From: a virus
Length of the DNA stretch: 24,351 bases
Strand: one strand, 5' to 3'
IMG/VR virus record: IMGVR_UViG_3300032053_007308
Span: 1-24,351 of that record
The position numbers and the translations under genes are program-made. Shown piece by piece: positions 1,329 to 24,351 of the stretch (the stretch's first letter is position 1; each line of letters opens with the position of its first letter). Below the pieces are notes generated by a model. The model did no database searches and was not told where the DNA came from. It saw only the letters and a program-made list of their open reading frames with translations.

Positions 1329-2294
1329 ATGAAGAAAAAAGTTGTTTATGTCACAGGTTGTCTAGGATTTATTGGAGCATATGTCACTGAAGCTTGCTTA
1401 AATGAAGGATGGTATGTTATTGGTGTTGATAAAATGACTTATGCTTCTCAACCTCATAAATTAACACAGTTTAAATGTCGAAAATCATTTAAATTTATCC
1501 AATCTGACATAAATGATTTGACTATGTTATATGATTGTGATTATGTCATTAATACTGCCGCCGAATCGCATGTTGATAATTCTATTGTTAGTAGTAGAGA
1601 ATTTTTACATTCCAATATTAATGGTGTTCATAACCTGTTAGAACTAATTCGTCAAAAGAATCGTTTTCAAATGCCAATACTTTTACATTTTAGTACTGAT
1701 GAAGTATATGGAGATATAGAAAAAGGATCTCATATAGAAACCGATCTTCTTACACCAAGCAATCCCTACTCTGCAACTAAGGCGTCAGCAGACATGTTAA
1801 TTACTGCTTGGGGAAGAACTTTTAAACTACCTTACATAATTGTCAGACCGACAAATAACTATGGTATTGGTCAATATCCTGAAAAACTCATCCCGAAGAT
1901 GTGTAAACTACTTCAATTAAATAAAAAAATTCCACTTCATAATAAAGGTCTTCCAAGAAGAATATGGTTACACGCAAAAGATACAGCGGATGCAATAATA
2001 ACCATTATTCATAATAATGATGATGGACAATGCCTCAATCAAATCTATAATATCTCTGGAAATTGTGAACTATCTAATATTGATGTTATCACGAAAGTTA
2101 TAACACAATTCAATGGAGATGCGGCATTCAAAATTGAAGATTACTGTGATTTTTCTTATGTTCGTGATGGACAAGATGTACGTTATAGCCTAGATGATAC
2201 AAAACTACATAAACTCGGATGGAATAATAAATGCGATCTTGATAAAGAGATACCATTTGTGGTAGAATACTACAAGAATAATTTTATATGGTAA
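1329..2294 (+). CDS. RmlB-like NDP-glucose 4,6-dehydratase (extended SDR)
   Basis: A protein of 321 residues in the dTDP-glucose 4,6-dehydratase family, which converts NDP-glucose to NDP-4-keto-6-deoxyglucose. Visible motifs in order are the NAD-binding VTGCLGFIG (TGxxGxxG), NTAAESHVDNSI, the active-site STDEVYGD with its Asp-Glu pair, the catalytic YSATK (YxxxK), VRPTNNYGIGQYPEKLIPKM, and RDGQDVRYSLDDTKLHKLGW near the C-terminus. All catalytic positions appear present. It is somewhat shorter than typical RmlB (about 350). It begins 20 nt after the methyltransferase stop and is clearly more AT-rich than the two genes before it. In this operon it would make the substrate of the E1-like enzyme. 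Whether it uses dTDP or CDP sugar cannot be read from sequence alone; no nucleotidyltransferase is in the window. Confidence 0.85.
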   Translation: MKKKVVYVTGCLGFIGAYVTEACLNEGWYVIGVDKMTYASQPHKLTQFKCRKSFKFIQSDINDLTMLYDCDYVINTAAESHVDNSIVSSREFLHSNINGVHNLLELIRQKNRFQMPILLHFSTDEVYGDIEKGSHIETDLLTPSNPYSATKASADMLITAWGRTFKLPYIIVRPTNNYGIGQYPEKLIPKMCKLLQLNKKIPLHNKGLPRRIWLHAKDTADAIITIIHNNDDGQCLNQIYNISGNCELSNIDVITKVITQFNGDAAFKIEDYCDFSYVRDGQDVRYSLDDTKLHKLGWNNKCDLDKEIPFVVEYYKNNFIW

Positions 2295-2297
2295 TCT

Positions 2298-4136
2298 ATG
2301 AAAATAAAAGTTAGCGATTTAATTGCAGAATTCTTAGAAAAATCCGAAATAAAAACAGTATTTGGCATAATTGGATCAGCCAATTCTCATATTTTTGATT
2401 CCATAACTAAACGAGGATACACACAAATTGTATGTGTTCATCACGAGCAAGCAGCAGTGATGGCTATGGGAGCATACTTTCGCACCTGTGGTAAACTATC
2501 TGCGGCTCTTGTCACTGCAGGAGCGGGGTCGTCCAATGCCATTACGGGAGTAATCAGTAATTGGGCGGATTCCATTCCGGGAATCATAATTTCGGGACAA
2601 GAGGAATCCAAATTTTTAGATCAACATGATAGACTTCGGATGTATGGCATTCAGGGATTCGATTCTCCGAAAATGGTTAAAGATGTTACAAAATATGCCA
2701 AAACCATTATTAATGAAACAAGTGTTCAAAATGAACTTGAATATGCTTATTTAATAACTCAATCTGAACGACCTGGACCTGTCTGGTTAAACTTCCCATT
2801 TGATATTCAATCTAAGATGATTGAGAGTAGTAATTGGACACTTAAATCCACTCGTCCACTTATGCAGTTCGATGCTGCACCATTGGTGGTTCAAATGGAT
2901 ATAGATTATATTCTTAAACAATTAAAAGAAGCAAAACGACCAGTTATATGGGCTGGACATGGTGTTCGACTATCAGGAATGAAAGATGAATTTAAAAAAT
3001 TAATAGAGCAACTTCAAATTCCTGTTATTTTAACATGGAGTGGTATAGACCTTCTCCATAATGAACATCCTCTCTATTTCGGGCGAGGGGGAGTAACTGG
3101 AATACGATATTCAAATTTCATAATTCAAAATTGTGATTTTTTATTGGTTGTTGGTAGTCGTTTGTCACTCATGCAAACCGGATATGATATATCCCTATTT
3201 GCTCCTAAAGCTAAAATTGTGATGGTGGATATTGACCGCAAAGAGAGTTCCAAACATCCAAATAAATATGAGCGAGTCATCCTACAAGATTGCCGCACGT
3301 TTGTTCCGGAGATGATTTCGAGAAATCAATCCTTTCCAAACCAAGAATGGATGAATTATTGTCGTAAGATGAAAGAGAAATATCCAGTCATCGAGGAATG
3401 CCATAAGGATGGTGGCCCGAACTATCTCAATTCTTACCGCTTCATTGACAAATTGTGTGACTATATTGATGACGACGCTATCATCGTCACTGATATGGGG
3501 ACCGGGTTACTAAGCGGGCACCACTCCATGCGATTAAAACCAAACCAACTCATGTTTACTTCACTTGGTCTTGGAGAGATGGGGTATGGATTACCAGGGG
3601 CGATTGGTGCTGCTAAAGCCTTTCCCGGCAGACAAGTAATCTGTCTTAACTGTGATGGTGGAATGATGATGAACTTGCAAGAACTGCAAACTATCGTTCA
3701 TCATAAACTTCCCATCAAGATTATCATATTCAATAATGATGGATACTTGATGATTAAGCATACTCAAAATCTGCTCTTCAAAGGATACCGAACTGCGGTA
3801 GATAAAAAAACTGGGGTGAGTCTGCCCAACTATCAAAAAATTGGACAGGCGTTTGAAATCAGAAGCAATCAGCTAAAAAGCTGGTCCGACTTTGACTGCG
3901 CTATTACCCACTGGTTGTACTACAAAATGCCAGCCATACTTGAAGTATTCATGGATCCAGAACAAGAATTTTTACCCAAGGTCAAAGGATTAGCAAACGA
4001 AGATGGAACAATTACCGCAGCACCACTTGAAGAAATGTATCCTCTTCTATCCTATGAAGAAATGGAAGGCGTCATGATTTCGGGAATGAGTGAACGCTCG
4101 AAAAAGATTTTAAGACTATGCAAGCTACATGAATAA
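2298..4136 (+). CDS. Acetolactate-synthase-like thiamine diphosphate enzyme (YerE-type candidate)
   Basis: A protein of 612 residues with the three-domain layout of ThDP enzymes. The N-terminal Pyr domain has KTVFGIIGSANSHIFD and the catalytic glutamate in CVHHEQAAVMAMGAY. A central domain has PVIWAGHGVR and LLVVGSRLS. The C-terminal PP domain has LGLGEMGYGLPGAIGAA and the Mg/ThDP motif NCDGGMMMNLQELQTIVHHKLPIK...FNNDGY. The first glycine of the usual GDG is a cysteine here (CDG). ThDP enzymes beside RfbH-type dehydrases include YerE, which adds a two-carbon unit from pyruvate to a 3,6-dideoxy-4-ketohexose to form yersiniose. That is the preferred reading here, by context. The stop overlaps the next start by 8 nt. 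GC content varies in blocks along the gene. Family firm, reaction inferred. Confidence 0.8.
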   Translation: MKIKVSDLIAEFLEKSEIKTVFGIIGSANSHIFDSITKRGYTQIVCVHHEQAAVMAMGAYFRTCGKLSAALVTAGAGSSNAITGVISNWADSIPGIIISGQEESKFLDQHDRLRMYGIQGFDSPKMVKDVTKYAKTIINETSVQNELEYAYLITQSERPGPVWLNFPFDIQSKMIESSNWTLKSTRPLMQFDAAPLVVQMDIDYILKQLKEAKRPVIWAGHGVRLSGMKDEFKKLIEQLQIPVILTWSGIDLLHNEHPLYFGRGGVTGIRYSNFIIQNCDFLLVVGSRLSLMQTGYDISLFAPKAKIVMVDIDRKESSKHPNKYERVILQDCRTFVPEMISRNQSFPNQEWMNYCRKMKEKYPVIEECHKDGGPNYLNSYRFIDKLCDYIDDDAIIVTDMGTGLLSGHHSMRLKPNQLMFTSLGLGEMGYGLPGAIGAAKAFPGRQVICLNCDGGMMMNLQELQTIVHHKLPIKIIIFNNDGYLMIKHTQNLLFKGYRTAVDKKTGVSLPNYQKIGQAFEIRSNQLKSWSDFDCAITHWLYYKMPAILEVFMDPEQEFLPKVKGLANEDGTITAAPLEEMYPLLSYEEMEGVMISGMSERSKKILRLCKLHE

Positions 4137-4986
4137 AGTAAAAGCAGCAATCATAGGGACAGGAAACATTGGAACAGATCTTATGGTCAAGACGCTGAAA
4201 TCCAATGTGCTTGAGTTAACTGCGTTTATTGGGCGCAGGGCAAATTCTATTGGAATTCAAAAAGCAATTGAAATGGGGGTCAATACTTCAATTGAAGGTA
4301 TTGATTATTTCAAAATAAATCCTAAACTCGATGTCGTATTCGATTGCACCGACGCATTTACTGCTAATCAAAATTGGTCAATTTTTCAGGATTTGGGGTT
4401 GCATGTTATTGATATGACACCATCCAAAATCGGTGAAATGTGTGTTCCAGTTATAAATCGAGATGTTATTCTCACTTACAAAAATGTAAATATGGTGACT
4501 TGTGGTGGACAAGCATCTATACCAATACTTAATTTAATATCAAATTGTTGTAATGAGATTGAATACATAGAAATCGTATCTCAAATCGCATCTAAAAGTG
4601 CCGGATTAGCAACTCGTGTTAATATCGACCAATATATCCATACCACCGAGGATGCCATTAGCAAATTTACTAATTGTAAATCATGTAAAGTAATTCTAAA
4701 TCTAAACCCCGCCGAGCCATGTGTGGATATGCAAACTACAATATTTGTCAAATCTGGAGAGGTCAATTTTGATACTCTTCAAGAGAATTTGAATGAACGT
4801 ATTAAGTTAGTTCGTAAGTATGTTCCTAACTATGAATTAGTTATGATGCCAATTATAAACGAAGACGGCATTCTTATATTAAGCATACGGGTTAAAGGTG
4901 CTGGTGATTTTCTGCCTAGTTATGCAGGAAACTTGGATATTATCAATTGCGCTGCCATAAACGTAGCAGAAAGGTTGATAGCATGA
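4129..4986 (+). CDS. Acylating acetaldehyde dehydrogenase (DmpF/MhpF family)
   Basis: A protein of 285 residues that in its family oxidises acetaldehyde to acetyl-CoA with NAD. The N-terminus has the dinucleotide motif AIIGTGNIGTDLMVK. The middle carries DVVFDCTDA, and the catalytic cysteine sits in MVTCGGQASIP at about residue 126. The dimer/C-terminal domain carries QIASKSAGLATRVNIDQYIHTTEDAI, and the C-terminus has GAGDFLPSYAGNLDIINCAA. The length is slightly under the usual 300-316. The start overlaps the ThDP gene by 8 nt, and the stop overlaps the aldolase start by ATGA. In degradation pathways this enzyme channels acetaldehyde directly from its aldolase partner, which is the next gene, so the pair probably forms a complex. 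A role inside a sugar operon is an inference. Confidence 0.85.
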   Translation: MNKVKAAIIGTGNIGTDLMVKTLKSNVLELTAFIGRRANSIGIQKAIEMGVNTSIEGIDYFKINPKLDVVFDCTDAFTANQNWSIFQDLGLHVIDMTPSKIGEMCVPVINRDVILTYKNVNMVTCGGQASIPILNLISNCCNEIEYIEIVSQIASKSAGLATRVNIDQYIHTTEDAISKFTNCKSCKVILNLNPAEPCVDMQTTIFVKSGEVNFDTLQENLNERIKLVRKYVPNYELVMMPIINEDGILILSIRVKGAGDFLPSYAGNLDIINCAAINVAERLIA

Positions 4987-6032
4987 GAACTATAATAATT
5001 AGTGACCCTTCCCTTAGAGACGGAAACCACTGTGTAAAGCATAAAATTGACCTTGCAAGTGTCGCTCGCTATTGCAAATTCGCTGAAAGTGCCAAAATTC
5101 CTATTGTAGAAGTGGGTCATGGCAATGGAATTGGTGCATCTTCTCTGTTAATTGGGCAAATGCCCCATACCGACGCTCAAATGCTCTCTATAGCACGGGA
5201 AAACCTCAAAGAAACGAAACTGGGGGTTCATGTTATTCCCGGTATGGCAACTATAAAAAAGGATATTCAACCCGCCATTGATGTTGGAGTTGATGTTTTC
5301 CGAATTGCGAGTCATGTTACCGAGGCAAACATTACTCAAAAGCATATTGAGTATGTTCGTAACAAGGGCAAGACAGTCTATGGTGTACTTATGATGTCTG
5401 CACTTGTCGATACCAAAACTTTAGTGTCAGAGGCAAAAAAGATGGAGTCGTATGGTGCCGAGACATTTCTAATCATGGATTCCACTGGCACATATCTTCC
5501 GAGAGATGTTGAGGGAAGAATTAAGGCACTGAAAGACAATCTATCAATAAGAATTGGGTTTCATGGTCATAACAACTTAGGACTTGCAATTGCAAATTCA
5601 CTTGTTGCAGTTCAATGTGGAGCAGATGTAATAGATGCTTGCATTCGTGGGTTTGGAGCAGGGGCAGGAAATACTCAACTTGAGGCTCTCATCCCTGTAA
5701 TGGAACAATATGGATACAACACAAACATTTCGTTTCAAAAAGTAATTATCGAAGCAGATGCCGTAATGGAATATATGGTTAAAACAGTTCCCGTGACTGC
5801 GCCTATAAACATACTAACCGGATTGACGAAACTGTTCTCTGGGTTTGAGAAACCAATTGTTAAGGCATCAAAACTATATGGAGTGGAATATTCTTCGCTT
5901 ATTTTTGAACTTGGCAATCGTAAATTGGTAGCTGGGCAAGAAGATCTGATTCTGGAAATTGCTCAAAACCTTAAAAAGACTCAAATAACTGATAAGTCTG
6001 ATAATGGATGGGAAAGAATTTCTTGTCCATAA
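4983..6032 (+). CDS. 4-hydroxy-2-oxovalerate aldolase (DmpG/MhpE family)
   Basis: A protein of 349 residues from the ATG at 4983, which overlaps the previous stop as ATGA. This start gives the normal DmpG length, while an upstream in-frame start at 4947 would run far into the preceding gene. The HMGL-type TIM barrel starts with DPSLRDGNH (usual DVTLRDG), carrying the catalytic Arg-Asp. Further motifs are VEVGHGNG, VFRIASHVTEA, MDSTGTYLP and the metal-binding HGHNN, then ADVIDACIRGFGAGAGNTQLE. The family cleaves 4-hydroxy-2-oxovalerate to pyruvate and acetaldehyde, which the partner dehydrogenase turns into acetyl-CoA. Together with the ThDP gene it forms a two-carbon/three-carbon module embedded among sugar genes. 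The direction and natural substrate here are not known. Confidence 0.87.
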   Translation: MRTIIISDPSLRDGNHCVKHKIDLASVARYCKFAESAKIPIVEVGHGNGIGASSLLIGQMPHTDAQMLSIARENLKETKLGVHVIPGMATIKKDIQPAIDVGVDVFRIASHVTEANITQKHIEYVRNKGKTVYGVLMMSALVDTKTLVSEAKKMESYGAETFLIMDSTGTYLPRDVEGRIKALKDNLSIRIGFHGHNNLGLAIANSLVAVQCGADVIDACIRGFGAGAGNTQLEALIPVMEQYGYNTNISFQKVIIEADAVMEYMVKTVPVTAPINILTGLTKLFSGFEKPIVKASKLYGVEYSSLIFELGNRKLVAGQEDLILEIAQNLKKTQITDKSDNGWERISCP

Positions 6033-12839: not shown

Positions 12840-15131
12840 TCAAGACCTTTTTTCATTTGCCCTTGATAAAAATAATTCGTTCATCGTGCGAGCTAAATCT
12901 ACGATTGAATTAACGTCTAAAAATTTTGCATTCTTTCCATACATTTTACGGAAATTCTTGCGAAGCGGACTTTTTTCAATTTCTACCAATCTTTCTTTTT
13001 CTTCCGCCAGTTCTTTGGGAGTCATTTCTTCAATTTTCTTCCGTTTTACACCACATCGGTCCTCTTCAATGAAATAACTCAACACTTCCACGCCATGGCG
13101 ACGAATCTTATCCACCTGTGCTTTGGTATGGGTTGCCCCTACATCGTCCGTATAGTACAACGTCATGCCTGTGGCGGGCACTTTAAGATAGTAGCACGGC
13201 TCGCCATCCGAAAGGTTGAGAAAATATCGTTCCTCTTCATCAGGAGTAATACCATCAAACAGATTCATGATTGCGCTGAACGCCAGACCCTCGGGCGTCA
13301 AACCATTAGGACTTAAATAGGGAAACAGCGAGCGAACTTTCGTGAATTTATCATGTTTTGAGTCATAAGCGAGAATGATGTATGGAAGTACCGTATCCGC
13401 CGATACTTGGGTTGAACGAAAAGATACAGTAACGTGAACATTATCAATCATTGATGCTGCTTTGCAGATAGCAACGACGGCAGTCATGGTTCGCAACCAC
13501 TTATTCCCATTCATTGACCCGCTGGCATCAACCGTGATATGCAACGTCGCATCGTGATGTTCGTCAACCTTGAGTTTATAGAATAAATCCTCGGCATCAA
13601 ATGCTGCTTCATGAATCTGTCGCTTGTTTATCTTGCCCCACTTCTTGCGAACGATCTTAATTGGATTGACTTCAGAACGGATTTGCAGTTTGCGCCCCAA
13701 CTTCGTGCCGAGCAGAATACCCTTCTTGACTGCATCAGCAACGTCTTTAGGAGGTTCTGGGGTTTCTTTGCCCAACTTCATTACGCCCGATAGCGGAAAC
13801 ACGTCTTCGCCCGAAAGAATGAGTTCTTTAGTCATCTTTTGGACAACGATGCAATCCACTTTAAGATTCTTATCGTCGCCCGCTTGCAATTTAGGCATTT
13901 CCACTTGCACCAAAATAATACTGTGCTTTTCCACCAATTCAAGTAGTGCCTTCTGCTGCTCCGTCACTTTTTCTTTGGGCAGCTCACCAGCCATAAATTT
14001 GCGCTGAGATTCAACGATATTTTTGATTTGCTTCTGAAGCTCTTTCCCAATATCACCACTCATACTGATACGATTGACCGCATCATGGTTCTCTTTTAAA
14101 TTTTCGGGGGTTGGATCACGCTCATTCAGAATATCTGAAATCTCATTGACCATTTTCTTGCCGACATCAACCTCTTCGGAATCTTTACCTGCGTCCTTAC
14201 CCTTCCCCGGTCCACCATCACCTTCACTTGGTTGAGGGTCGTCATAACTATTCGTGGTCTGTTGGTTTTCACCAAAATCAAAATACTCACTTGGGTCGGC
14301 AAGTTTCTGTTTGCTCTGACTCTTTGTTGGTTGACCTTGTTGTAGTGGAAGTGGTTTGTCTAGGCAATCCAAGACGATTTCCACAACTTTGAATGCGGTC
14401 TTTACTCGGTCCTTGGTTCTTTCTAATCGGTCAATATGGGAAATGTCAATGGCCCGGGCAATATCATCCAACCGTGGTAGTGCCATGAGGTCAGTATTCA
14501 GATTGGTGAAGTTGGTAATACGAAAATTGTAGGAATCCAGACTAGGATACCTATGGACATCACTCAAAAGTAATTCGTCCACTCCAGCACAGTTCCAAAA
14601 TTTCTCATAGAGAGCAACATAATAACCCCGATATCCCGGTGCCTCATTAAAGACGTAGTTATCAATGAATCGGTCTTCAATGACATTCCACATATTGTGA
14701 ATAAACTTCTCCAACGATGCCCGTCTAATATTCTTATTGTCGGAGAGTTTGAGGATCTTAGACGGGATATTTGCCCATGCGCTTTTAACTACACTAAAAT
14801 CTGTCTTAAGTGTATGGGCACCTTCATGGAGTGCTTGTCCAACAGCAACGTCAAAATCTTGCATGGTGTTGATTTGGGCAGAGAGGTAAATGACCTTGCC
14901 GCCAAAATTCACATTGGCATCGGCATCATTGAAATAGACAGGGATGTTCTTGCGAGTCAGAATGCGGACGAAGTTAGAAACCGCTTTGCGAATAGAAGAC
15001 AGGCGAACCATGTCAATATTGAACACAAGGGTTTCGTTCGAGGAATTCCCTTGGTCTAGGAAATTGACATACTTATCAGAATCCAGCCAGAAGTCAACTT
15101 CGGCGGGAGATATGATTTTACCTCGGTTCAT
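12840..15131 (-). CDS. CobT-like protein: HExxH metallopeptidase-like domain plus VWA domain
   Basis: A protein of 763 residues. The N-terminal domain carries ALHEGAHTLKTDF with HExxH at about 102-106, followed by VIEDRFID at about 150-157, an arrangement like the EDARIE motif of CobT-type proteins. A polar, Gly/Asp/Glu-rich linker spans about 265-345. The C-terminal VWA domain has a MIDAS DASGSM at about 535-540 and LNLSDGEPCY further on. It starts within TAATG of the MoxR gene's stop, so the two are coupled, as in MoxR/VWA and CobS/CobT pairs. Such pairs act as ATP-driven remodelling or metal-insertion machines. Phage versions are often labelled cobaltochelatase, but no CobN is present, so that function is unproven. 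Confidence 0.78.
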   Translation of the reverse strand: MNRGKIISPAEVDFWLDSDKYVNFLDQGNSSNETLVFNIDMVRLSSIRKAVSNFVRILTRKNIPVYFNDADANVNFGGKVIYLSAQINTMQDFDVAVGQALHEGAHTLKTDFSVVKSAWANIPSKILKLSDNKNIRRASLEKFIHNMWNVIEDRFIDNYVFNEAPGYRGYYVALYEKFWNCAGVDELLLSDVHRYPSLDSYNFRITNFTNLNTDLMALPRLDDIARAIDISHIDRLERTKDRVKTAFKVVEIVLDCLDKPLPLQQGQPTKSQSKQKLADPSEYFDFGENQQTTNSYDDPQPSEGDGGPGKGKDAGKDSEEVDVGKKMVNEISDILNERDPTPENLKENHDAVNRISMSGDIGKELQKQIKNIVESQRKFMAGELPKEKVTEQQKALLELVEKHSIILVQVEMPKLQAGDDKNLKVDCIVVQKMTKELILSGEDVFPLSGVMKLGKETPEPPKDVADAVKKGILLGTKLGRKLQIRSEVNPIKIVRKKWGKINKRQIHEAAFDAEDLFYKLKVDEHHDATLHITVDASGSMNGNKWLRTMTAVVAICKAASMIDNVHVTVSFRSTQVSADTVLPYIILAYDSKHDKFTKVRSLFPYLSPNGLTPEGLAFSAIMNLFDGITPDEEERYFLNLSDGEPCYYLKVPATGMTLYYTDDVGATHTKAQVDKIRRHGVEVLSYFIEEDRCGVKRKKIEEMTPKELAEEKERLVEIEKSPLRKNFRKMYGKNAKFLDVNSIVDLARTMNELFLSRANEKRS

Positions 15132-15907
15132 TAAAAGTCTTCAACTCGCTTACCGGCGAGGGGGTCATTGATGGGACTCTTGACATCCTTTGGGAAATAC
15201 TTCTGGAGGATGGACTTTACAAAGGCACGTTCACTGTCCGCACCACCATCATCGGGATATTCGGGATAGATTGCTGCCTCGGCAATTTCTTCAAGGGCAA
15301 ATCCATCCATGACAAGTTCCGCCATTTCAACCATGTTGGCGGGAGAGATGAAAGTTGTAATGGGAGCATCTTCAATCTTGCATTGGGCAATCAAGTCATC
15401 CGAAATCTTGGTGATGACCTTCATCAACTTTTCTTCCTCGTCAGTTCGCCCATGGAACAGGATGCCGAACAGCTTTTGGAGTTCCCTACCCGTCAGCGGG
15501 GTCATTTCCAACTTGATGGGGAATCGGCGAGACAACGCTTTATCAAGCACTTTTGTCGCAGTATATTCATTTCCTATGTTTGCTGTAGCAATAAAACAAA
15601 CACTCTCATCCACTCTCACAACGGGAGAATTTTCGTGCTCGTCGAGACGTAAACAACGCTGCGTAGGATCTAAAACAGGAAACAAAATATTCCAAAAATC
15701 ATGCCCACCACGAGTCAACTCATCTAACAAAATAACAGCGTTTTTTGTTTGAATTGCTTCTACGAACGGTGATTTATGAAACAATGTTCCAGTGTCTTTT
15801 TTATAGGTTGTGTTTCCAATCAGTGTTGCCCGAGCATCTTGACCCCCACCACAGTTAAAAACGTGAAATGGATGGGTGTATTCTTTGTATTTTACTTTAT
15901 AATTCAT
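15131..15907 (-). CDS. MoxR/CobS-like AAA+ ATPase, C-terminal part of a split gene
   Basis: A 258-residue frame holding everything of the AAA+ module after Walker A. It has PFHVFNCGGGQDARATLIGNT, Walker B AVILLDELTR (about 57-66), FIATANIGNEY (sensor 1, about 105-113) and ALSRRFPIKLEMTPL (arginine finger region, about 124-138). A helical lid and C-terminal tail finish it. The first about 12 residues (MNYKVKYKEYTH) do not look like AAA+ sequence. The ATG at 15907 overlaps the GIY-YIG gene's stop (ATGA), and the stop touches the VWA start. The Walker A half lies at 16693-16971, and AKSFSVEH joined to PFHVFN would restore a normal AAA+ core. Whether RNA splicing or two-chain assembly does this is not settled. 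Confidence 0.8.
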   Translation of the reverse strand: MNYKVKYKEYTHPFHVFNCGGGQDARATLIGNTTYKKDTGTLFHKSPFVEAIQTKNAVILLDELTRGGHDFWNILFPVLDPTQRCLRLDEHENSPVVRVDESVCFIATANIGNEYTATKVLDKALSRRFPIKLEMTPLTGRELQKLFGILFHGRTDEEEKLMKVITKISDDLIAQCKIEDAPITTFISPANMVEMAELVMDGFALEEIAEAAIYPEYPDDGGADSERAFVKSILQKYFPKDVKSPINDPLAGKRVEDF

Positions 15908-16653
15908 TTTTGTATTATTTTGATAAATGCATATTCACCACGCAATGCTCGTTTCCAGTTAATTCGTTGTGCCCCAGACCCTCGCACTCGTCCTATTGGA
16001 ATTCCTCTATTATATTCTCGGATAAACTTTACAAAATTCGCACGACTATCAAATGTTTTTCGAACTTCCCAATTAACTTCAATTCGTATTGTATCCCATC
16101 GTTTCAACTGAGATACTCTCATTTTTTCTCTTGTCTTTGTGGATGGAATAAGACCGCAGTGAGACTTCGATATGCGGTCTTTCGTCTCGGTGGACAACCG
16201 TTTTCCTAGATGTGTTTCACTTATCATTTTTTTGAACTCCGATGTTCGTCGCTTACCATACATCGGATTATTTTCTCCTCGATTGTTAAATGATACCTTA
16301 GCGTGAACACCGGGGCGTTTCATCGCTGCTGTCACGGTCTCACTAAGCTTATTTCTATAGGATGGGTCATCATATCGCCGGTGTTTGTTGGGAGACGTTT
16401 CCCGAACCAAATTATAACATTGTTTATCTTTAATTGCATTTAACCGATCAATCCATTCAAGTTCTTTTGCCTGAAGTTCGACCTCATCGGCACATGTCTC
16501 CAATATCTCTTTTTTGAAGTTTTTTCTCCCATATTTTTGGATTGCTCGTCTTAATGCTGACCCAGATCCAAGATACCCAATGGTATATTTTTTCTGTTTT
16601 CCAATGTAAAACTTTCCGTTTATCAAATTAGTTGTTCTATAAATTATCATCAT
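15904..16653 (-). CDS. GIY-YIG homing endonuclease with NUMOD3 motifs
   Basis: A protein of 249 residues. The N-terminal GIY-YIG nuclease domain reads MIIYRTTNLINGKFYIGKQ, followed by GYLGSGSALRRAIQKYG, the catalytic arginine region, and FKKEILETC...ELEWIDRL. The middle has NUMOD3-type DNA-binding repeats (ENNPMYGKRRTSEFKKMISETHLGKRLSTETKDRIS). The C-terminus is basic (INWKRALRGEYAFIKIIQK). ATGATG at 16653 has AGAAGGG at proper spacing. It lies exactly between the two halves of the MoxR/CobS-like gene, overlapping the downstream half by ATGA. It either sits in a group I intron with very little non-coding RNA (about 110 nt before and 35-50 nt after) or has split the gene as a free-standing element. 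It is AT-richer than the host gene. Confidence 0.85.
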   Translation of the reverse strand: MMIIYRTTNLINGKFYIGKQKKYTIGYLGSGSALRRAIQKYGRKNFKKEILETCADEVELQAKELEWIDRLNAIKDKQCYNLVRETSPNKHRRYDDPSYRNKLSETVTAAMKRPGVHAKVSFNNRGENNPMYGKRRTSEFKKMISETHLGKRLSTETKDRISKSHCGLIPSTKTREKMRVSQLKRWDTIRIEVNWEVRKTFDSRANFVKFIREYNRGIPIGRVRGSGAQRINWKRALRGEYAFIKIIQK

Positions 16654-16675
16654 AATATTCCCTTCTGTGACAGTA

Positions 16676-16690
16676 ATAAATATATTCCAC
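16676..16690 (-). promoter_or_regulatory. 15-bp motif shared with the HNH endonuclease leader
   Basis: On the - strand GTGGAATATATTTAT occurs between the MoxR N-half stop and the GIY-YIG start. It matches 14 of 15 bases of the motif at 18695-18709, which sits before the HNH gene. The inner TATATT could be a -10 box, with TTGAAG 16 nt upstream as a weak -35 here only. A promoter used by the endonuclease genes is the simplest reading. Confidence 0.4.
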
Positions 16691-16692
16691 CC

Positions 16693-16971
16693 CTAGAGTT
16701 CTTCAATTTTTTGGATTTTTATATTTGGAGAATTTTTGAGAATATTTAACCGATCCTCAGTAACTATTTGTTCATGTTCAACTGAAAAGGATTTGGCCAC
16801 ACACCGAGCTGCCATGGTTTTTGCACAGCCGGAAGGACCGATTATCATGACGTTTTTTGCACGTAACACCGCTCGCACGAGATACTTCCACTTCAAGTCG
16901 CTGATAATCAACTCACTGGGCTTAAGCGTAGCGCAATTACGCAAGAGGTCGTCTATTTCTGCATCATTCAT
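16693..16971 (-). CDS. MoxR/CobS-like AAA+ ATPase, N-terminal (Walker A) part of a split gene
   Basis: A 92-residue frame from the ATG at 16971 (MNDAEIDDLL...); a GTG at 16989 would start inside the -10 box of the promoter proposed here. Residues 45-52 are the Walker A GPSGCAKT, followed by MAARCVAKSFSVEH. At that point the AAA+ homology stops, and an extra tail of about 25 residues (EQIVTEDRLNIL...KIEEL) runs to a TAG. The rest of the ATPase continues at 15131-15907 after the GIY-YIG gene. No Walker B is present, so this half alone cannot hydrolyse ATP. An 8-nt complementary pair (16781-16788 with 16754-16761) flanks the presumed break and might be part of an intron P1 stem. Confidence 0.78.
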   Translation of the reverse strand: MNDAEIDDLLRNCATLKPSELIISDLKWKYLVRAVLRAKNVMIIGPSGCAKTMAARCVAKSFSVEHEQIVTEDRLNILKNSPNIKIQKIEEL

Positions 16972-16977
16972 TCTCAC

Positions 16978-17006
16978 AGTATGGCACACCCCACGCCAGA
17001 AGTCAA
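16978..17006 (-). promoter_or_regulatory. Sigma70-type promoter with extended -10
   Basis: On the - strand TTGACT (17006-17001) is followed, after exactly 17 nt, by CATACT (16983-16978), with an upstream TG making an extended -10. The predicted transcription start, 7 nt past the -10 end, is the A of the ATG at 16971. The message for the Walker A half of the MoxR gene would then be leaderless. It lies directly after the terminator's T-run. Confidence 0.55.
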
Positions 17007-17866: not shown

Positions 17867-17950
17867 TCATGCAAACTTCGTCGTGGCAAAATAAACCAGT
17901 TCTTTGCCACAATTTGGACATTTCTGCCCCGTCACGCTTATACCGTCCAC
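17867..17950 (-). pseudogene. Truncated C-terminal zinc-ribbon gene fragment
   Basis: The last 27 codons of a frame read VDGISVTGQKCPNCGKELVYFATTKFA and then stop. CPNCGKEL is half of a zinc ribbon, and the DNA is GC-richer than the adjoining endonuclease gene. Upstream the frame closes at once (TAA near 17957) inside the HNH gene, whose last codons overlap it. It looks like the tail of an older gene whose front was replaced when the HNH/nrdJ block arrived. A very short real gene from the GTG at 17950 cannot be excluded. Confidence 0.45.
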
Positions 17951-18687
17951 GATGTATTATACCTTACAATCGTTCTACACATATCCAAAAAATATTTCTC
18001 ATCAAAATCTTGTTTCATAAAATTGACATCTTTATGTACCCATTGAACATTCCCTGGAATATATCCCTTTTCAGAATCAATACGATCTAATGACGCAGTT
18101 TGAAGATTAGTTTTACTTCCTATATCTAATATGATATCCTTTCCAGAAAGAGCACATTTTCCCTTCTGTTGTTCGAACAATTCCCAAACATATTTTTTCG
18201 TTATCGTAAATTCAAGATTTCTTCGTTTTGCACGTCTATTGTTTTTTGCATTTCGTTCAATTTTATTCCACGTTGATCCAGATATACCGCCATATCCACT
18301 CCATCGCTGATGTTTTTCTTTTACCTTATCGTGAATCAAACATCCACAAGATTTTATATTTCCACTTTTAAGATAGATTCCAGATACTTCATATTCCTTC
18401 CCACAATCACATAAACATCTAAAAAAACTCGATCTAGTTCCATGATGAGATGGGTTATCTTTAATTCCTGTAAATTCTATAACAGTTAATTTACCGAATT
18501 TTTTTCCAACCAAATCATATTTTGGTTTATGTTTAAGCTTAGACCCATCTATATTTTTAGTTCTACCACAACATAAATTTCTCTTATTGTGATAATTTCT
18601 CCAACATAAATAACATTGTTTCCTTCCGATGGGAAACTCATTAATAATTTTAGGAATAAAACACTTAGTACAAACTTGTGTGATCAT
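17938..18687 (-). CDS. HNH homing endonuclease with zinc-binding N-terminus
   Basis: A protein of 249 residues from the ATG at 18687; an earlier ATG at 18717 would span the shared 15-bp motif. The first part has cysteine pairs (CTKCFIP...CYLCWRNYHNKRNLCCGR). The middle is the LVGKKFGKLTVIEFTG...FRCLCDCGKEYEVSGIYLKSGNIKSCGC domain, common in phage HNH proteins. The nuclease part has KCALSGKDIILD, TASLDRIDSEKGYIPGNVQWVHKDVNFMKQDF, where DRIDS and the NVQW...N segment carry the HNH residues. It stands between nrdJ and a broken zinc-ribbon gene and is strongly AT-rich. It appears free-standing, and its target was probably the nearby locus. Confidence 0.82.
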   Translation of the reverse strand: MITQVCTKCFIPKIINEFPIGRKQCYLCWRNYHNKRNLCCGRTKNIDGSKLKHKPKYDLVGKKFGKLTVIEFTGIKDNPSHHGTRSSFFRCLCDCGKEYEVSGIYLKSGNIKSCGCLIHDKVKEKHQRWSGYGGISGSTWNKIERNAKNNRRAKRRNLEFTITKKYVWELFEQQKGKCALSGKDIILDIGSKTNLQTASLDRIDSEKGYIPGNVQWVHKDVNFMKQDFDEKYFLDMCRTIVRYNTSWTV

Positions 18688-18694
18688 ATACTCT

Positions 18695-18709
18695 ATAAGT
18701 ATATTCCAC
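18695..18709 (-). promoter_or_regulatory. 15-bp motif shared with the GIY-YIG endonuclease leader
   Basis: On the - strand GTGGAATATACTTAT lies 7 nt before the HNH start and 20 nt after the nrdJ stop. It differs by one base from the motif at 16676-16690. The inner TATACT would be a good -10 box, but it would place the RNA start only a few bases before the ATG. Confidence 0.4.
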
Positions 18710-18729
18710 AAAAACAAAACATATTTATT

Positions 18730-21294
18730 TTATTTACAAACACTATATCCACAAGAAAGACATGATTTACATCCATTTTGATATACTAATTTTGAGCTAC
18801 ATTGTGGGCAGCTTTCAGTTGATACCGTATTTTCTTTAACATACTTTTTAAGTATTCTAGCTATTACTTTAGAAAATACAGTCATATCTCCTGTAGTTTT
18901 TTGTAACTGATCACATATCATATAAACGGAAGCCCCATGTCTGAGCGCACATGAAGTCATCCGAGTTAAAGCATCAGCACTATCATCACTATGACCATTG
19001 GTTAATAAATATTCGGTGCCACTATCAGCAACAAATGTATATTTTTGTTTGGAAATCTTTACGATTTTTCCAGATTCAGATTCAATTTTGTCCCTAAAAT
19101 TTATCCCAGTAAATACTTCATATAAATCATCCCCCAAAAATCCCAATGCGACATATATTTTTTCCTTCTTGTAATGTGCCGCATAAATTTCCCCCCTTAG
19201 TTCTTTTGGTCGTTTAACAGCAGTTGTCTTGACTATAGAATCATCTGATTTATTATCAGATACTAACACTCCACTACGACATCCATCACGATATATCGTT
19301 ATTCCCTTACACCCACTTTTCCATGCTGTTTCATATATTACCGAAACATCTTCCTCGGTAGCAGAGCTGGGTAAATTAACAGTCGAACTAATAGAATGGT
19401 CAATGTGTTTTTGAATTACAGCTTGAAGATTCACTCTCTGTTTCCAATCAATCTCATTAGAACAACACTTATTCCACGGGGACTTTGTAATATCAGTTTC
19501 ATCATTGATCTTCATCCACATTTCGAGAGGTTTATGATAAACCATAAAGTGTTGCCACGAATCTCCTTTACCATCTACAAAATCAACTTTAGAATTCTTA
19601 TCTCCTGGATTTATTTTCTTCCGACGCATATATGAAAGTGCATAAACGGGCTCTCCACTACTACTTGTTTGTGCAAATATACTAGGAGTTCCGGTAGGAG
19701 CTAAAGTTAATAATCCAATATTTCTTCGACCATATTTAGATATTTTTTCATATAAATCTAAATTTTCATCTTTAATTTGAAGCAGGAATTCACTATTCTT
19801 TTCGAGATTCCAATCCCAAATAGGAAATGCCCCCAATTCTTTAGCCATATCGCAAGAAGATCCAAACGCAGCATGTTTGAATTTCATCATTACTATATCT
19901 ACAAACTTTATGGACTCATCAGTATCAAACTTAATATTAAGTGCTGCAAGCATGTCGGCCAAAGCAGTAATTCCAAGTCCAGTGCGCCGACCATTTACTG
20001 CTTTAATTCTCACCCGTTTCCATAAATCTAATTCATTTTGCTTCAAAGATGTATCTTCAGGATCACTCTCAACCTTTTCGATTATACGATCAACTTTTTC
20101 AATTTCTAAATCAATTAAATCATCCATCAATCTCTGACCAATAGACACATATTCATTAAATAACTCAAAATTAAACGAAGATTTTTTAGTAAATGGATTA
20201 TCTACAAATGATAGTAAATTAACGACCATTAAACGACAACTATCATCCGCACAAAGCGGAATTTCCCCACATGGATTTGTACAAATAGTGCCAAATCCTT
20301 CTTTTTCATAACAATCCACCGCATTATATTTAATCATGCGGTCCCAAAAAATTACACCTGGCTCAGCACTTTGCCAGGCCATATGAATAATTTTTTTCCA
20401 TGCATTTTTCGCATTTACCATTTTTCTTATTGATGGATTCTTTGAGTCAATAGGAAATCGTTGTTCATAGTCAGTATTATTTTTTACTGCATCCAAAAAT
20501 TCATTAGTCAATGCCACCGATACATTTGCTCCAGTCACCATTTTTCGGTTCAATTTCATCGAAACAAAATCTAATTTTTTTGGATTATAATAACAAGACA
20601 ATGTTAAAATATCTCGTTCTCCACGAGATGAATTTCCTTTAATAAGTATTTGTTCTGGATTAGTCCACGAAACATCCGTAGATTCTGGTATAATAACACT
20701 TTCTGGATGGTGAATATTTAACATCTCCATCAAAGCCCCTCGGCGACCATTTTGACCAACTTCTCTAATTGTGTTGGAATATCTCTCAGCAAATGTTACA
20801 ATTCCAGTAGAAGTTCTGGAGGAGTTTGTGGTAGAAGACCCTGCTGGACGTAAATTAGATAAATTAGTTCCAACCCCGCCACGTCTTTTTGATAATTGTG
20901 CAATATTTTCGTCCACTCTCAAAATTCCACCATAACTATCTTTTGGAGAATCGGTTACAAAGCAATTACTCAACGATAAAATTTGGATGTCATTTCCTAT
21001 TCCAGTCATGGGAGAACTTTGGGGAATTAAATATTTGAATTTATCAAATAGTGAATATATCTTTTCCTCCGATAAAGGATGTTTGAATTTGTTTTTTTCT
21101 ATTCTTGCAAATTCTTTTGCCATACGGCGATGCATCATTACAGGAGAATTTTCCAATAGATTTCCATCTAAATCTCTTAATGCATTAGCATCCAAAAATG
21201 TTTTGGCCGCCAGTTCATCTCCATCAAAATATTTGGTTGATATTTCGAATGCTTGTTCAAATGTAAACGTATCCTTAGTTATTATTGTATCCAT
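18730..21294 (-). CDS. nrdJ: Class II adenosylcobalamin-dependent ribonucleotide reductase
   Basis: A protein of 854 residues from the ATG at 21294 (MDTIITKDTFTFEQAFEI...), which has AAGAAGA just upstream. A TTG at 21327 adds 11 residues and is less likely. It reduces ribonucleotides to deoxyribonucleotides using a B12-derived radical. Visible family features are LSNCFVTD (redox cysteine), RRGGVGTNLSNLRP, NPCGEIPL (active-site Cys and Glu), LTLAPTGTPSIFAQTSSSGEPVYALSY, NLPSSATEEDV, and a C-terminal cysteine module CPQCSSKL...CKSCLSCGYSVCK. It is intact and of normal length. It is much more AT-rich than the helicase exteins and VWA gene around it and lies beside an HNH gene, suggesting separate acquisition. 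It needs B12 from the host. Confidence 0.93.
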   Translation of the reverse strand: MDTIITKDTFTFEQAFEISTKYFDGDELAAKTFLDANALRDLDGNLLENSPVMMHRRMAKEFARIEKNKFKHPLSEEKIYSLFDKFKYLIPQSSPMTGIGNDIQILSLSNCFVTDSPKDSYGGILRVDENIAQLSKRRGGVGTNLSNLRPAGSSTTNSSRTSTGIVTFAERYSNTIREVGQNGRRGALMEMLNIHHPESVIIPESTDVSWTNPEQILIKGNSSRGERDILTLSCYYNPKKLDFVSMKLNRKMVTGANVSVALTNEFLDAVKNNTDYEQRFPIDSKNPSIRKMVNAKNAWKKIIHMAWQSAEPGVIFWDRMIKYNAVDCYEKEGFGTICTNPCGEIPLCADDSCRLMVVNLLSFVDNPFTKKSSFNFELFNEYVSIGQRLMDDLIDLEIEKVDRIIEKVESDPEDTSLKQNELDLWKRVRIKAVNGRRTGLGITALADMLAALNIKFDTDESIKFVDIVMMKFKHAAFGSSCDMAKELGAFPIWDWNLEKNSEFLLQIKDENLDLYEKISKYGRRNIGLLTLAPTGTPSIFAQTSSSGEPVYALSYMRRKKINPGDKNSKVDFVDGKGDSWQHFMVYHKPLEMWMKINDETDITKSPWNKCCSNEIDWKQRVNLQAVIQKHIDHSISSTVNLPSSATEEDVSVIYETAWKSGCKGITIYRDGCRSGVLVSDNKSDDSIVKTTAVKRPKELRGEIYAAHYKKEKIYVALGFLGDDLYEVFTGINFRDKIESESGKIVKISKQKYTFVADSGTEYLLTNGHSDDSADALTRMTSCALRHGASVYMICDQLQKTTGDMTVFSKVIARILKKYVKENTVSTESCPQCSSKLVYQNGCKSCLSCGYSVCK

Positions 21295-21327
21295 ATTTCT
21301 TCTTGAGATTGTATCTTGGTTTGGCAA

Positions 21328-21384: not shown

Positions 21385-22590
21385 TTAGTTGGAATTGGCG
21401 TCGTTGTCGTCGCCGTGGGTTTTCTTCCATGCCTTACCGAGAATGTCCTTGATGCTCTCTTGGGCAGTTTTGGCCTTGCTCAGAATCTCCAACCCCTCAA
21501 CGGAGTCCTTGTCGTAGATGCAGATTTTTCCACATGACGTGTCAAATGCACAGACATAGGTCTGTCCATCGGGTCCAAAGCGGTTCTTCATGACATGAAC
21601 CCGGCCCGACCCCGCCAACTTGTCTTCGGTCTTGCGGGACAAGGAGAGGATGAAATCTCCCGTCATGATTTTCTTATAGCTTTCGGCAACATTGCCTGCG
21701 CCAATGACTTCTTCTTCGTGTGCTCCACGGTTTGACTGTGAAGCAGTCCATCCGGGAACTTGGAGTTCGCCCAACATGCCACGCAACTCTTCATAGACAC
21801 TTCCACCATCGCTGTAAGAGTTGGCATTTTTGTCAGCGACAAGCGGACGTAGTAAGTCTGCGTAGTCCACAATCACAAGGTCAATTTTGATGCCCGTGAT
21901 TAGTTGGAATCGGTCAATGTGCATCTTGAGAGTTGATGCCGATGCCGTTTTGATGGGAAAGTATTTGATGAAGAGTTTGCCGGGAATAGTCGCAAGTGCA
22001 TCTTTGATTTGCTGAACATTCTTACGAACTTCTTGGAAAGCGATGCCAGAGAAACATGCGTCATAACGGAGTCCGACATACTTTTCATTCAACTCCATTG
22101 TGAAATGCATCACGTTCTTGCCCTGTCGCATTGCCTCTGCTCCGATGCGAGATAAAAACCACGAATTATGAGACACTATGCCATTTGAATAATAACAGTG
22201 AACATCTTCCACCGAAATATCATATAAAATTTCCTCTTTCCATTTAGTGTATTTATTCTTTTTGCTATGTTTTTTAACTACGGATGTAGTTCCATTTTCG
22301 GTTTCTATGATATCATCTTTAGTAATATCTTTTACTTTTTTCCACTCACCATTCGCTTTTAATAAGTGATCTTCCGAAGTTTTTAACGTCGTATTATTCT
22401 TAAAATAGGTGGTAACTACTTTTTGTTTCTTAGTTCGAAATGCAGTTACAATATTCTTAAATCCATATGGAGTTTTAACCCCCAATGGGAACGGAACATT
22501 GAGATTAGCATCTTCTCGGTCTTCTATCTCTAATTTAGAGAAAAGATTGATCACTTTTATTTTTTCTGTAACAACACGTTTATAAATCAT
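21385..22590 (-). CDS. C-intein plus C-terminal extein of gp41/DnaB-type replicative helicase
   Basis: A 401-residue frame. Residues 1-142 are a C-intein: block B-like TLKTSEDHLLKANGEW (about 68-83), block F EILYDISVEDVHCYYSN (about 120-136), and block G NGIVSHN ending at Asn142, with Ser143 as the +1 nucleophile. The extein starts SWFLSRIGAEAMRQGKNVMHFTMELN, the part right after the GK of Walker A. It continues with Walker B-type LVIVDYADLL, TASQSNRGA and VMKNRFGPDG. Splicing to the upstream half (23787-24351) would restore APAGSGKS. The intein DNA is clearly AT-richer than the extein DNA. The start overlaps the endonuclease stop (ATGA). This resembles the fractured gp41 genes known from metagenomes. 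Confidence 0.9.
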   Translation of the reverse strand: MIYKRVVTEKIKVINLFSKLEIEDREDANLNVPFPLGVKTPYGFKNIVTAFRTKKQKVVTTYFKNNTTLKTSEDHLLKANGEWKKVKDITKDDIIETENGTTSVVKKHSKKNKYTKWKEEILYDISVEDVHCYYSNGIVSHNSWFLSRIGAEAMRQGKNVMHFTMELNEKYVGLRYDACFSGIAFQEVRKNVQQIKDALATIPGKLFIKYFPIKTASASTLKMHIDRFQLITGIKIDLVIVDYADLLRPLVADKNANSYSDGGSVYEELRGMLGELQVPGWTASQSNRGAHEEEVIGAGNVAESYKKIMTGDFILSLSRKTEDKLAGSGRVHVMKNRFGPDGQTYVCAFDTSCGKICIYDKDSVEGLEILSKAKTAQESIKDILGKAWKKTHGDDNDANSN

Positions 22591-22598
22591 ACTAAATA
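22587..22598 (-). repeat. 12-bp repeat at C-intein start (copy 1)
   Basis: The 12-mer TATTTAGTATGA (- strand) includes the C-intein ATG and the endonuclease stop. It is identical to 23751-23762. Confidence 0.5.
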
Positions 22599-23510
22599 CT
22601 TTCGTATTTTATCAACACATTCTTGTTTATTGGAATTCCATTCCGATTCCCACACTATTAGTAATTCATATCCTTTGGATTTTAGGCAAGATATTCTCAC
22701 ACCATCTTTCTTCCATATATCACTCGCAATCATAACAGATTTCCCATATGGATACAACTTTTTACATTCAGAAAATATTGATGGGTTGGCGTGCCAGAAA
22801 TCTCCATAAAACTCAATAATTTTTTTTCCTTTAATTACATCCACAATATAAGGACCAACTGCAACATTTGCTTCCACCGAAGCATCAATATTTTCTTTAA
22901 TGTGATTATAAAATTGTATTTCTGCTTTACTACGACCATTAAAATTTCCAAAATGCTTTGCCCAATTTCCTTTCCCTACTCTTTCTATCATTTTTTTAAC
23001 TGACGACGAAATTCGTTCATTTTCTCCATCAGTATGAACGTGACCTTCAAATTTAGATGATCGAGAAGATAATTTTGCCTGTAACTTGCTAATTTCATTT
23101 ATTGCCTCTTTTTTAGAATATCCCCGTTTAATCCAATACTTTGAATTGAAATGGGAACACTCTTGTAAATCATCTTTATCCAAGTGTTTTTGACAATTCT
23201 GTTTTTGTAATTCTGACACTTTTGTCTTTGCATCCAATTCAGACAATCCTTTATTTACCCAATATTTTATGGTCAAGCACGATGCACCATTCTTTTGTCT
23301 ATCAGAATTTTCTTTTCTGAACGATTTGTCTTGATTTAATTTTTTAAGTGTATTAGATATTTTCTTCTTCAACTCATCAGAATGGACATACAACCGACAA
23401 GGACCGAATTTTTGCCTATACTGAACCGAATTACAGGAATGCTTAAATTTAAGATGTGTTACTAAATTCATCCCCTCAAATCCACAGAATTGGCATTTGA
23501 GATTATTCAT
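22587..23510 (-). CDS. Vsr-fold (EDxHD-type) homing endonuclease between split-intein halves
   Basis: A protein of 307 residues from the ATG at 23510 (MNNLKCQFCGFEG...), which overlaps the upstream small ORF's stop by 8 nt; a longer reading from 23606 is not preferred. It starts with a C2H2-like finger (C6, C9, H19, H24). The middle has repeats resembling YW.N.G.S..DA...VSELQ (about 80-150). The C-terminal 100 residues carry the Vsr-like nuclease: SKAEIQFYNHI, PYIVDVIKGKKIIEFYGDFWHANP, DIWKKDGVR and YELLIVWESEW. This endonuclease family was described inside fractured, split-intein genes. It presumably cuts intein-less helicase genes at Walker A and so spreads the element. Confidence 0.82.
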   Translation of the reverse strand: MNNLKCQFCGFEGMNLVTHLKFKHSCNSVQYRQKFGPCRLYVHSDELKKKISNTLKKLNQDKSFRKENSDRQKNGASCLTIKYWVNKGLSELDAKTKVSELQKQNCQKHLDKDDLQECSHFNSKYWIKRGYSKKEAINEISKLQAKLSSRSSKFEGHVHTDGENERISSSVKKMIERVGKGNWAKHFGNFNGRSKAEIQFYNHIKENIDASVEANVAVGPYIVDVIKGKKIIEFYGDFWHANPSIFSECKKLYPYGKSVMIASDIWKKDGVRISCLKSKGYELLIVWESEWNSNKQECVDKIRKYLV

Positions 23511-23754
23511 AGTTGATTGTAATTTCCTCTTGTGGAGAAAAGGCATCAAAAATAATTTTGGATGAGATTGATAATATTTTACCATCAACACTTGACGATA
23601 TCGCATTTTGTCTCAACAAAGAATATTCCTCTTCTACATCGAATGATTCGGGAACTTCTCGTGGTTCATATGTTAAATTTTCGGATTTACAATATTTAAC
23701 ATATCTTAAATCATCTTTTATTTCCATGTTCAAATTTATTACTTTTGTTTTCAT
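23503..23754 (-). CDS. Small ORF between N-intein and endonuclease, 83 aa
   Basis: An 83-residue acidic frame starting MKTKVINLNMEIKDDLRY. Its stop overlaps the endonuclease start (ATGAATAA), and it starts 32 nt after the N-intein stop. The first residues (KTKVINL..MEIKDD) resemble the start of the C-intein (KIKVINLFSKLEIED), and the 12 bases around the two start codons are identical (TATTTAGTATGA). It may be a duplicated piece of the intein, or an accessory to the endonuclease. No known domain. Confidence 0.5.
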   Translation of the reverse strand: MKTKVINLNMEIKDDLRYVKYCKSENLTYEPREVPESFDVEEEYSLLRQNAISSSVDGKILSISSKIIFDAFSPQEEITINYE

Positions 23755-23762
23755 ACTAAATA
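23751..23762 (-). repeat. 12-bp repeat at small ORF start (copy 2)
   Basis: The same TATTTAGTATGA (- strand) includes the ATG of the 83-residue ORF. The two copies bracket the small ORF plus endonuclease block. This suggests duplication at insertion, or a shared translation-start signal. Confidence 0.5.
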
Positions 23763-23786
23763 AATATCATGCCAAACACAAAAGGT

Positions 23787-24351
23787 TCATTTTTTCTGTA
23801 TATTTTCCTGTTCCAGCGGGAGCGACTTCATCTTTTCAATTTCAAAGAAAATATTATCAATTTGCCATCCAAATAATAACTTTCCATCAAAATCAAACTT
23901 ATCAAATGGTTTAATCCATATGATATATTCTTTTCCCGAATTTCCGGTAACAGAAATTCCAGTTTCCATATATTTGATTTCAATTTCTGTGTTAGGACCA
24001 ACACATTTTCCCGATCCAGCGGGAGCAACGACGAATCCAAGTTCGCCCTTACCGAGTCCGCCGTCCATGTGAGTGTCAATGATTTCCCAATTGGTTTTGA
24101 TGACTTCACGTGCCATTTCCGACATGCGTTGGTCAATATCAATCAAATAGTCGTGCCCCAAATTACGTTCAAGTCCAGCACGGGATGCTTCGTTGATTAC
24201 ACTCCACACACTATCATAATCACCATGTTTCAAAAACTGACTGGCAAAAAGAATAGCATTCTTCAACTTCTGATTGCGACAAAATTCGAGAAACTGCTCC
24301 TTGATATACGCCGTGTCAGATGCCGACACTTGTTGATATGCTGCCTTGACT
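23787..24351 (-). CDS. N-terminal extein of gp41/DnaB-type helicase plus N-intein, 5' end outside window
   Basis: The frame is open to the window edge (VKAAYQQVSASD...), so the GTG at 24329 is not the true start. The extein has EFCRNQKLKNAIL and GLGKGELGFVVAPAGSGK, the gp41 hexameric helicase up to Walker A. At 24005 the N-intein starts with Cys in CVGPNTEIEIKY, a block A. Only 72 intein residues follow before the stop, and block B is absent: it lies on the C-half. So the intein is split early, as in the AceL-TerL type, rather than at the usual endonuclease position. The last about 15 residues (KMKSLPLEQENIQKK) overlap, in another frame, a copy of the Walker A DNA. Confidence 0.87.
   Translation of the reverse strand, partial: VKAAYQQVSASDTAYIKEQFLEFCRNQKLKNAILFASQFLKHGDYDSVWSVINEASRAGLERNLGHDYLIDIDQRMSEMAREVIKTNWEIIDTHMDGGLGKGELGFVVAPAGSGKCVGPNTEIEIKYMETGISVTGNSGKEYIIWIKPFDKFDFDGKLLFGWQIDNIFFEIEKMKSLPLEQENIQKK
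23800..23826 (-). repeat. Degenerate second copy of helicase Walker A DNA
   Basis: These 27 nt match 24003-24029, the codons for VAPAGSGK plus the first intein base triplet, at 23 of 27 positions. Read in its own frame on the - strand this copy gives VAPAGTGK followed by Tyr. In the N-intein frame it reads SLPLEQENI. The frame is closed on both sides, so it is a fragment, not a gene. Confidence 0.75.
24003..24029 (-). repeat. Walker A / intein insertion site, original copy
   Basis: This encodes VAPAGSGK with the intein's first Cys codon at 24005-24003. It is the functional partner of the repeat at 23800-23826 and the expected target region for the Vsr-type endonuclease in an intein-less allele. 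Confidence 0.7.

Follow-up and report, generated by a model that had tools for sequence, protein, structure and literature searches.

How can a virus obtain a replicative helicase from a gene that is broken in the middle of its Walker A motif? The question is raised by a 24,351-nucleotide (nt) stretch of viral DNA from the IMG/VR record IMGVR_UViG_3300032053_007308 (the window, whose full-length coordinates are used throughout), in which a gp41/DnaB-like helicase encoded on the minus strand is broken exactly at Walker A, GSGK^S. We conclude with high confidence that the interrupting element is a naturally split class-1 intein at Walker A of a gp41-type phage helicase, with the gene of an EDxHD homing endonuclease (HE) between its halves. 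This confidence does not cover the reading, as an operator, of a mimic of the target site found upstream of the HE gene, which is graded separately below.

Structure of the broken helicase gene

Both pieces of the helicase match PHROG 19, with the junction at profile positions 366/367 (E 1.8e-12 for the N-terminal and 8.3e-39 for the C-terminal piece); the latter also matches DnaB_C (E 7.9e-8), and the DnaB C-terminal domain with Walker A that characterizes gp41/DnaB-type replicative helicases is present. The N-half open reading frame (ORF; 23787-24350, on the minus strand as are all parts of the locus, and cut at its 5′ end by the window) encodes the N-extein, which is the helicase up to GSGK (24006..24350), and then the N-terminal intein fragment (IntN; 72 amino acids (aa) plus stop, 23787..24005), which starts CVGPNTEI and carries block A (CVGPNTEIEIKY). 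In the C-half ORF (21385-22590), SEDH, YDISVEDVHCYY and GIVSHN are followed by Ser. Its 142-aa C-terminal intein fragment (IntC; 22165..22590) contains a b3/a1 element, block B (KTSEDH), block F (LYDISVEDVHCYY) and block G (SNGIVSHN), and the C-extein (21385..22164) runs from the Walker A Ser (+1) to the stop. Between the two fragments lie an 83-aa ORF (23503..23754) and the 307-aa HE (22587..23510). The N-half is separated from the 83-aa ORF by 32 nt, the 83-aa ORF overlaps the HE gene by 8 nt, and the HE gene overlaps the C-half by 4 nt (ATGA). The whole insert (22165-24005; 1,841 nt) is AT-rich, with 30.8% GC against 46-49% in the flanking exteins.

The C-half scores above the cut-off of NCBIfam intein_Cterm (26.8 vs 15.6 bits) and below the gathering score of Pfam Intein_splicing (26.4 vs 35.8 bits), and a profile of IntC finds VidaL as its best match in the PDB (E 1.1e-8). 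Cys1, directly after GxGK, is invariant in ten aligned members of the family (alignment A3), as are H75, D124, H141, N142 and S143 in the C-half (alignment A4), which represent the block B His, the block F Asp and the terminal HN^S; these are residues of a class 1 intein.

Family scans with the C-half, with IntN and with profiles of each (several of the loci represent the same contig) turned up about 40 viral loci in which this intein interrupts a helicase of the same type at the GK^S/T site. Because nearly all of them are split at the same place, the split is not a sequencing error; a frameshift or assembly error was likewise rejected, since the same split recurs in tens of independent contigs. 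Separate ORFs encode the halves in the window, and the other helicase loci examined agree with this apart from L025/L050/L051 and L067. Neither 50,697 phage records nor the genome collection yielded a relative of the intein, which represents a distinct lineage, and within this search the family is so far known from uncultivated viruses only. The 83-aa ORF was seen in the window only. It lies outside the core system, because it has no relative in viral contigs or phage records and is absent from L023/L033; it also has no family match of weight.

The endonuclease and the mobility of the element

The HE, which is full length, combines a Ros/MucR-like Cys2His2 finger, two repeated YW..RG helical motifs and a C-terminal Vsr-like nuclease domain. 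Its PDB profile matches are Vsr (1odg/1vsr, E ~0.0015), Ros (2jsp, E 0.005) and I-Bth0305I (3r3p, E 0.29), and the first Foldseek match of its structure model is 3r3p, the catalytic domain of I-Bth0305I (E 0.0026, target-length template-modelling (TM) score 0.77). E197, D224, H240 and D269 are invariant or nearly so (alignment A7), and we take them to be the namesake EDxHD motif; a Vsr-like fold with E-D-H-D residues is what defines EDxHD homing endonucleases. Homologues in phages include a protein annotated as VSR endonuclease between two intein-bearing polB pieces of Aeromonas phage Aes123. A preliminary description of the locus had already proposed a gp41-type helicase fractured in Walker A, its four ORFs, a split intein with the blocks given above and an internal Vsr-type endonuclease. 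The translations and coordinates, the PHROG 19 matches of both halves, the intein_Cterm match with the conserved splicing residues, and the Vsr and I-Bth0305I matches bear out each of these points, and the recurrence of the split removes the concern that resequencing might yield a contiguous gene.

Is the element mobile? In L001, a viral contig whose helicase has 93% aa identity to that of the window, the gene is uninterrupted, that is, the site is empty, and the DNA aligns with the window on either flank of the insert at 82-83% identity. As L001 is empty at the same site, the insert was gained by the window lineage or lost by its sister. In the helicase tree the window is sister to L001 (99/96), L033 stands beside the empty L005, and the presence of the intein requires at least four changes. 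The empty allele and this patchy distribution are indirect signs that the HE may cleave the intein-less allele site-specifically.

L045, L055 and L065 arose by deletion of the HE body, with the 3′ end of the gene kept, and L047 retains an apparent HE tail (sequence read by eye). The halves are separated only by a 15-nt stretch with two in-frame stops in L017/L063, and overlap by 4 nt in L068. The contiguous L050, on a long branch, nests within a clade of split, HE-bearing inteins in the IntC tree (96/97), and for this reason splitting appears to be reversible, L050 being better read as a re-fusion. We considered the contiguous L025/L050 as the ancestral form and rejected it, since the IntC tree places the contiguous form inside the split clade. 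Empty sites, the tree pattern, HE deletions and re-fusion are what a homing cycle predicts.

Position of the split and the extended IntN

Early splits are designated S1 when they fall after b2 and before b3/a1, as in VidaL and PolB16, and S2 when they fall after helix a1, as in AceL-TerL and GOS-TerL; the published IntN fragments of natural early-split inteins have 15-37 aa (PMC13014065, whose nomenclature we follow). The IntC of the window begins with the b3/a1 element, EKIKVINLFSKL (b3/a1 EKIKVINLF lies in IntC), so the gene is split before block B, as the preliminary description had recognized. Its assignment to the AceL-TerL class must be given up, because helix a1 is in IntC and the split is at S1, as in VidaL, the best PDB profile match, and in PolB16. 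IntN also exceeds the published range, with 72 aa in the window. Within the family its length varies between 33 aa (L069) and 74 aa and is in most cases above 37 aa; IntC has 135-142 aa in the members measured.

Beyond block A, IntN continues into a conserved segment with WxxPF and FGWQ, which is missing from minimal inteins (alignment A3; structure model of the contiguous relative). An AlphaFold model of the contiguous L025/L050 intein has the Hint fold (predicted local distance difference test (pLDDT) score 79) and VidaL as its top Foldseek match; in a separate structural alignment VidaL scores Z 16.4, level with other inteins. In this model, the ~50-residue segment after block A is predicted as strands and a helix (residues 41-77), and the split of other members maps between helix 61-77 and strand 86-96/helix 97-103. 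The active N-part could nevertheless be limited to the first ~16 residues, as in VidaL, the remaining ~55 being a dispensable tail; L069 has an IntN of just 33 aa and L017/L063 one of 45 aa, and the FGWQ part, being absent from the IntN of L017 and L069, is dispensable in nature. The Trp and Pro of WxxP are, however, invariant in ten aligned members including the 45-aa IntN of L017, the 33-aa IntN of L069 has WYDP, and the segment folds in the model and is retained in the contiguous L025/L050. We regard a dispensable tail as unlikely, and do not uphold the very short active N-part suggested in the preliminary description, in view of the family conservation and the contiguous relative.

A copy of the presumed homing half-site upstream of the endonuclease gene

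The left half of the presumed homing target, GTTGCTCCCGCTGGATCGGGAAAA (24006..24029), ends exactly at the insertion point. A 25-bp mimic of it, GTCGCTCCCGCTGGAACAGGAAAAT (23802..23826), identical at 22 of 25 positions, lies a short way upstream of the HE gene, within the 3′-terminal part of the IntN coding sequence. The mimic reads VAPAGTGK in another frame, which differs from that of the Walker A it resembles, and its alignment score of 19 was not reached in 2,000 shuffles of the element, the highest of which scored 16. Of 30 loci, 19 have the core pattern GGNNNNGGNAAR no more than 60 nt from the IntN stop, where 0.36 would be expected and 500 shuffles never gave more than 3. Each of these 19 has the HE, of which L065 retains a remnant. 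The pattern is missing from seven loci in which the intein is contiguous or the HE body is absent (L045, L047, L055, L063, L068, L050 and L067), the remnant L065, where it is kept, being the exception. L052, L053 and L069 have the HE and lack the strict pattern, and L064 is cut by the contig end. In two of the three HE deletions the left end lies inside the target-site copy. Hairpins between IntN and HE vary among loci, and no T4-type late promoter (TATAAATA) was found there in the loci screened for it. In L055/L059, the L055 HE deletion is flanked by a short direct repeat, GCATA, the left copy of which is in the mimic; the repeat might reflect self-cutting or microhomology.

A homing-site-like sequence upstream of the HE gene is the sequence signature of I-TevI-type autorepression. 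I-TevI, of the phage T4 td intron, binds an operator upstream of its own gene without efficient cutting, and this operator is a homing-site copy just upstream of the HE gene, with 15/20 identity in T4 (PMC2988022) as against 22/25 here. I-TevI is, however, a GIY-YIG enzyme of a group I intron, and its operator overlaps a mapped late promoter, whereas here an EDxHD enzyme, a split intein and a putative operator seen in the DNA are involved. Owing to the pattern among loci and the I-TevI precedent we favour, at roughly even probability, the interpretation that the mimic is an operator by which the HE would repress its own gene. A somewhat less probable, though serious, explanation is that the copy is a relic of the first entry of the HE gene, the captured flank of an HE that was once inserted at Walker A. 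The copies resemble the target from -24 to 0 and no farther, ending right at the insertion point, as expected of a captured left flank. A neutral relic should, on the other hand, decay without tracking the target, yet the copy in the window is still 22/25 identical, and at -24 to -13, outside the search pattern, copies fit the target of their own genome better than those of others (permutation p 0.007; the loci are related, which makes this suggestive only).

Other genes of the window

A second gene, encoding a MoxR/AAA_5-like ATPase (15131-16989, minus strand), is likewise broken just after Walker A, into an N-part (16693-16989) and a C-part (15131-15907); a GIY-YIG/NUMOD3 SegE-like endonuclease is encoded in between (15904-16653), and at this break we found no group I intron match and saw no intein motifs. 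A 259-aa ORF (17938-18717, minus strand) with a Cys-rich N-terminus and an HNH-like look (KGKCALSG), without a Pfam or NCBIfam match, is probably another endonuclease. An adenosylcobalamin-dependent ribonucleotide reductase, NrdJ (18730-21327, minus strand; above the NCBIfam cut-off), is uninterrupted. The plus strand at 1329-6032 carries a metabolic cluster unusual for a phage contig: dTDP-glucose dehydratase-like, acetolactate-synthase-like, acetaldehyde dehydrogenase and 4-hydroxy-2-oxovalerate aldolase genes.

Discussion

In the mechanism that we propose, the N-half and C-half ORFs would each be translated into a protein of its own, the 72-aa IntN would associate with the 142-aa IntC to rebuild the Hint domain, and splicing via Cys1 and Ser+1 would leave an uninterrupted GSGKS helicase. 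Alleles without the intein would be cut by the HE at Walker A and would then receive a copy of the entire cassette. The DNA of the window and its relatives shows the pieces, an exact empty site, splicing residues conserved throughout the family, an intein that is scattered over the helicase tree, deletions of the HE and a single contiguous derivative. Several points weigh against our conclusion: trans-splicing and HE cleavage are steps that we infer; the window ends within the N-extein, so that the intact N-terminus is out of view; and the split-intein account leaves the 83-aa ORF unexplained. In addition, the preliminary description treated both halves as intein parts, and profiles support this for the C-half (intein_Cterm), whereas the IntN fragment alone gives no intein profile match, either in the family libraries or, as a profile, against the PDB.

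The locus could also be dead, either because the helicase is a pseudogene or because the intein is inactive and the phage uses another helicase. The insert does sit in an essential loop, the activity of the intein is deduced from sequence only, and just 24 kb of the virus is in view. Both exteins and the splicing residues are, however, intact and conserved over wide divergence, and frames are open in tens of contigs, even the HE-deleted ones, which points to continued selection for splicing; we consider a dead element improbable. Still less credible, to the point of being very remote, is an RNA intron with its endonuclease in place of an intein. EDxHD enzymes have been described among intron homing endonucleases (PMC3943268), but we rejected an intron, as there is no Rfam match in the window; moreover, the C-half opens with most of a Hint domain ending HN^S, block A directly follows GK in the relatives, and L025/L050 carries the same intein as one open frame. 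A split intein thus remains our strongly preferred explanation of the break.

A fractured helicase with a split intein and an EDxHD endonuclease is an already-known kind of arrangement. Fractured gp41 genes with the gp41-1/gp41-8 split inteins and an EDxHD endonuclease were reportedly described by Dassa et al. in 2009. They share with the window the broken gene, the split intein halves, the Vsr/EDxHD HE between them and the gp41-type helicase host, and differ in that gp41-1 and gp41-8 are split after block B (canonical) and have another position in the protein. In L033, L029, L017 and L047, but not in the window, an SQ[SA][NQ]R site holds a second split intein of canonical appearance. In L033, L029 (L043), L017 (L063), L047, L052 and L067 the N-part of a second intein starts after the helicase SQ..R motif, and these helicases should be assembled from three polypeptides. 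The preliminary description held that known fractured gp41 genes use inteins split after block B. We doubt that this is the only kind: VidaL comes from, and is named after, a T4-like helicase, so that S1-split inteins have probably been seen in genes of the gp41 type before.

VidaL (PDB 6vgv, 6vgw) is the closest solved relative, being both the best PDB profile match and the top Foldseek match, although identity in the structural alignment is low (18%). Like the window intein it is split at S1, after b2 and before b3/a1, and it has Ser at +1 in the solved chain; its IntN has 16 aa (PMC13014065), in contrast to 33-74 aa here with an extra segment predicted to fold. AceL-TerL and GOS-TerL are also split before block B, but after helix a1 (S2), with a 25-aa IntN in AceL (PMC13014065), whereas here the helix is in IntC. 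The IntC profile also picks up contiguous phage inteins of the TerL type (L073-L075); they belong to the same broad family, lie in a probable terminase large subunit and lack the extra segment after block A. PolB16 OarG (8cpn) shares the S1 position, but is cysteine-less (Ser1), with a 15-aa IntN and a PolB host, compared with Cys1 and a helicase host here. In Aeromonas phage Aes123 polB, the homologous HE (~26% identity) likewise lies between N- and C-intein gene pieces with short overlaps, in another host gene and with another, cysteine-less intein (PMC11923092). What sets the window apart from described cases is the S1 split combined with a long and conserved IntN, together with the evidence of split reversal and the target-site copy. 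Tentatively, and with less than even confidence in the whole, we propose that this is a distinct early-split lineage in which the N-part is an extended folding unit, the EDxHD HE controls itself via a co-evolving copy of its homing site, and the split is reversible, contiguous forms being re-made after HE loss.

Early-split inteins are in demand as tools for joining proteins, and only a few are on record. The present family offers natural IntN fragments of 33-74 aa at one structural position, which makes IntN requirements directly testable. One target site shows the stages of a homing cycle: empty, HE-bearing split, HE-deleted split and re-fused contiguous. If the target-site copy is indeed an operator, the I-TevI principle of autorepression would extend to a second endonuclease fold and to inteins.

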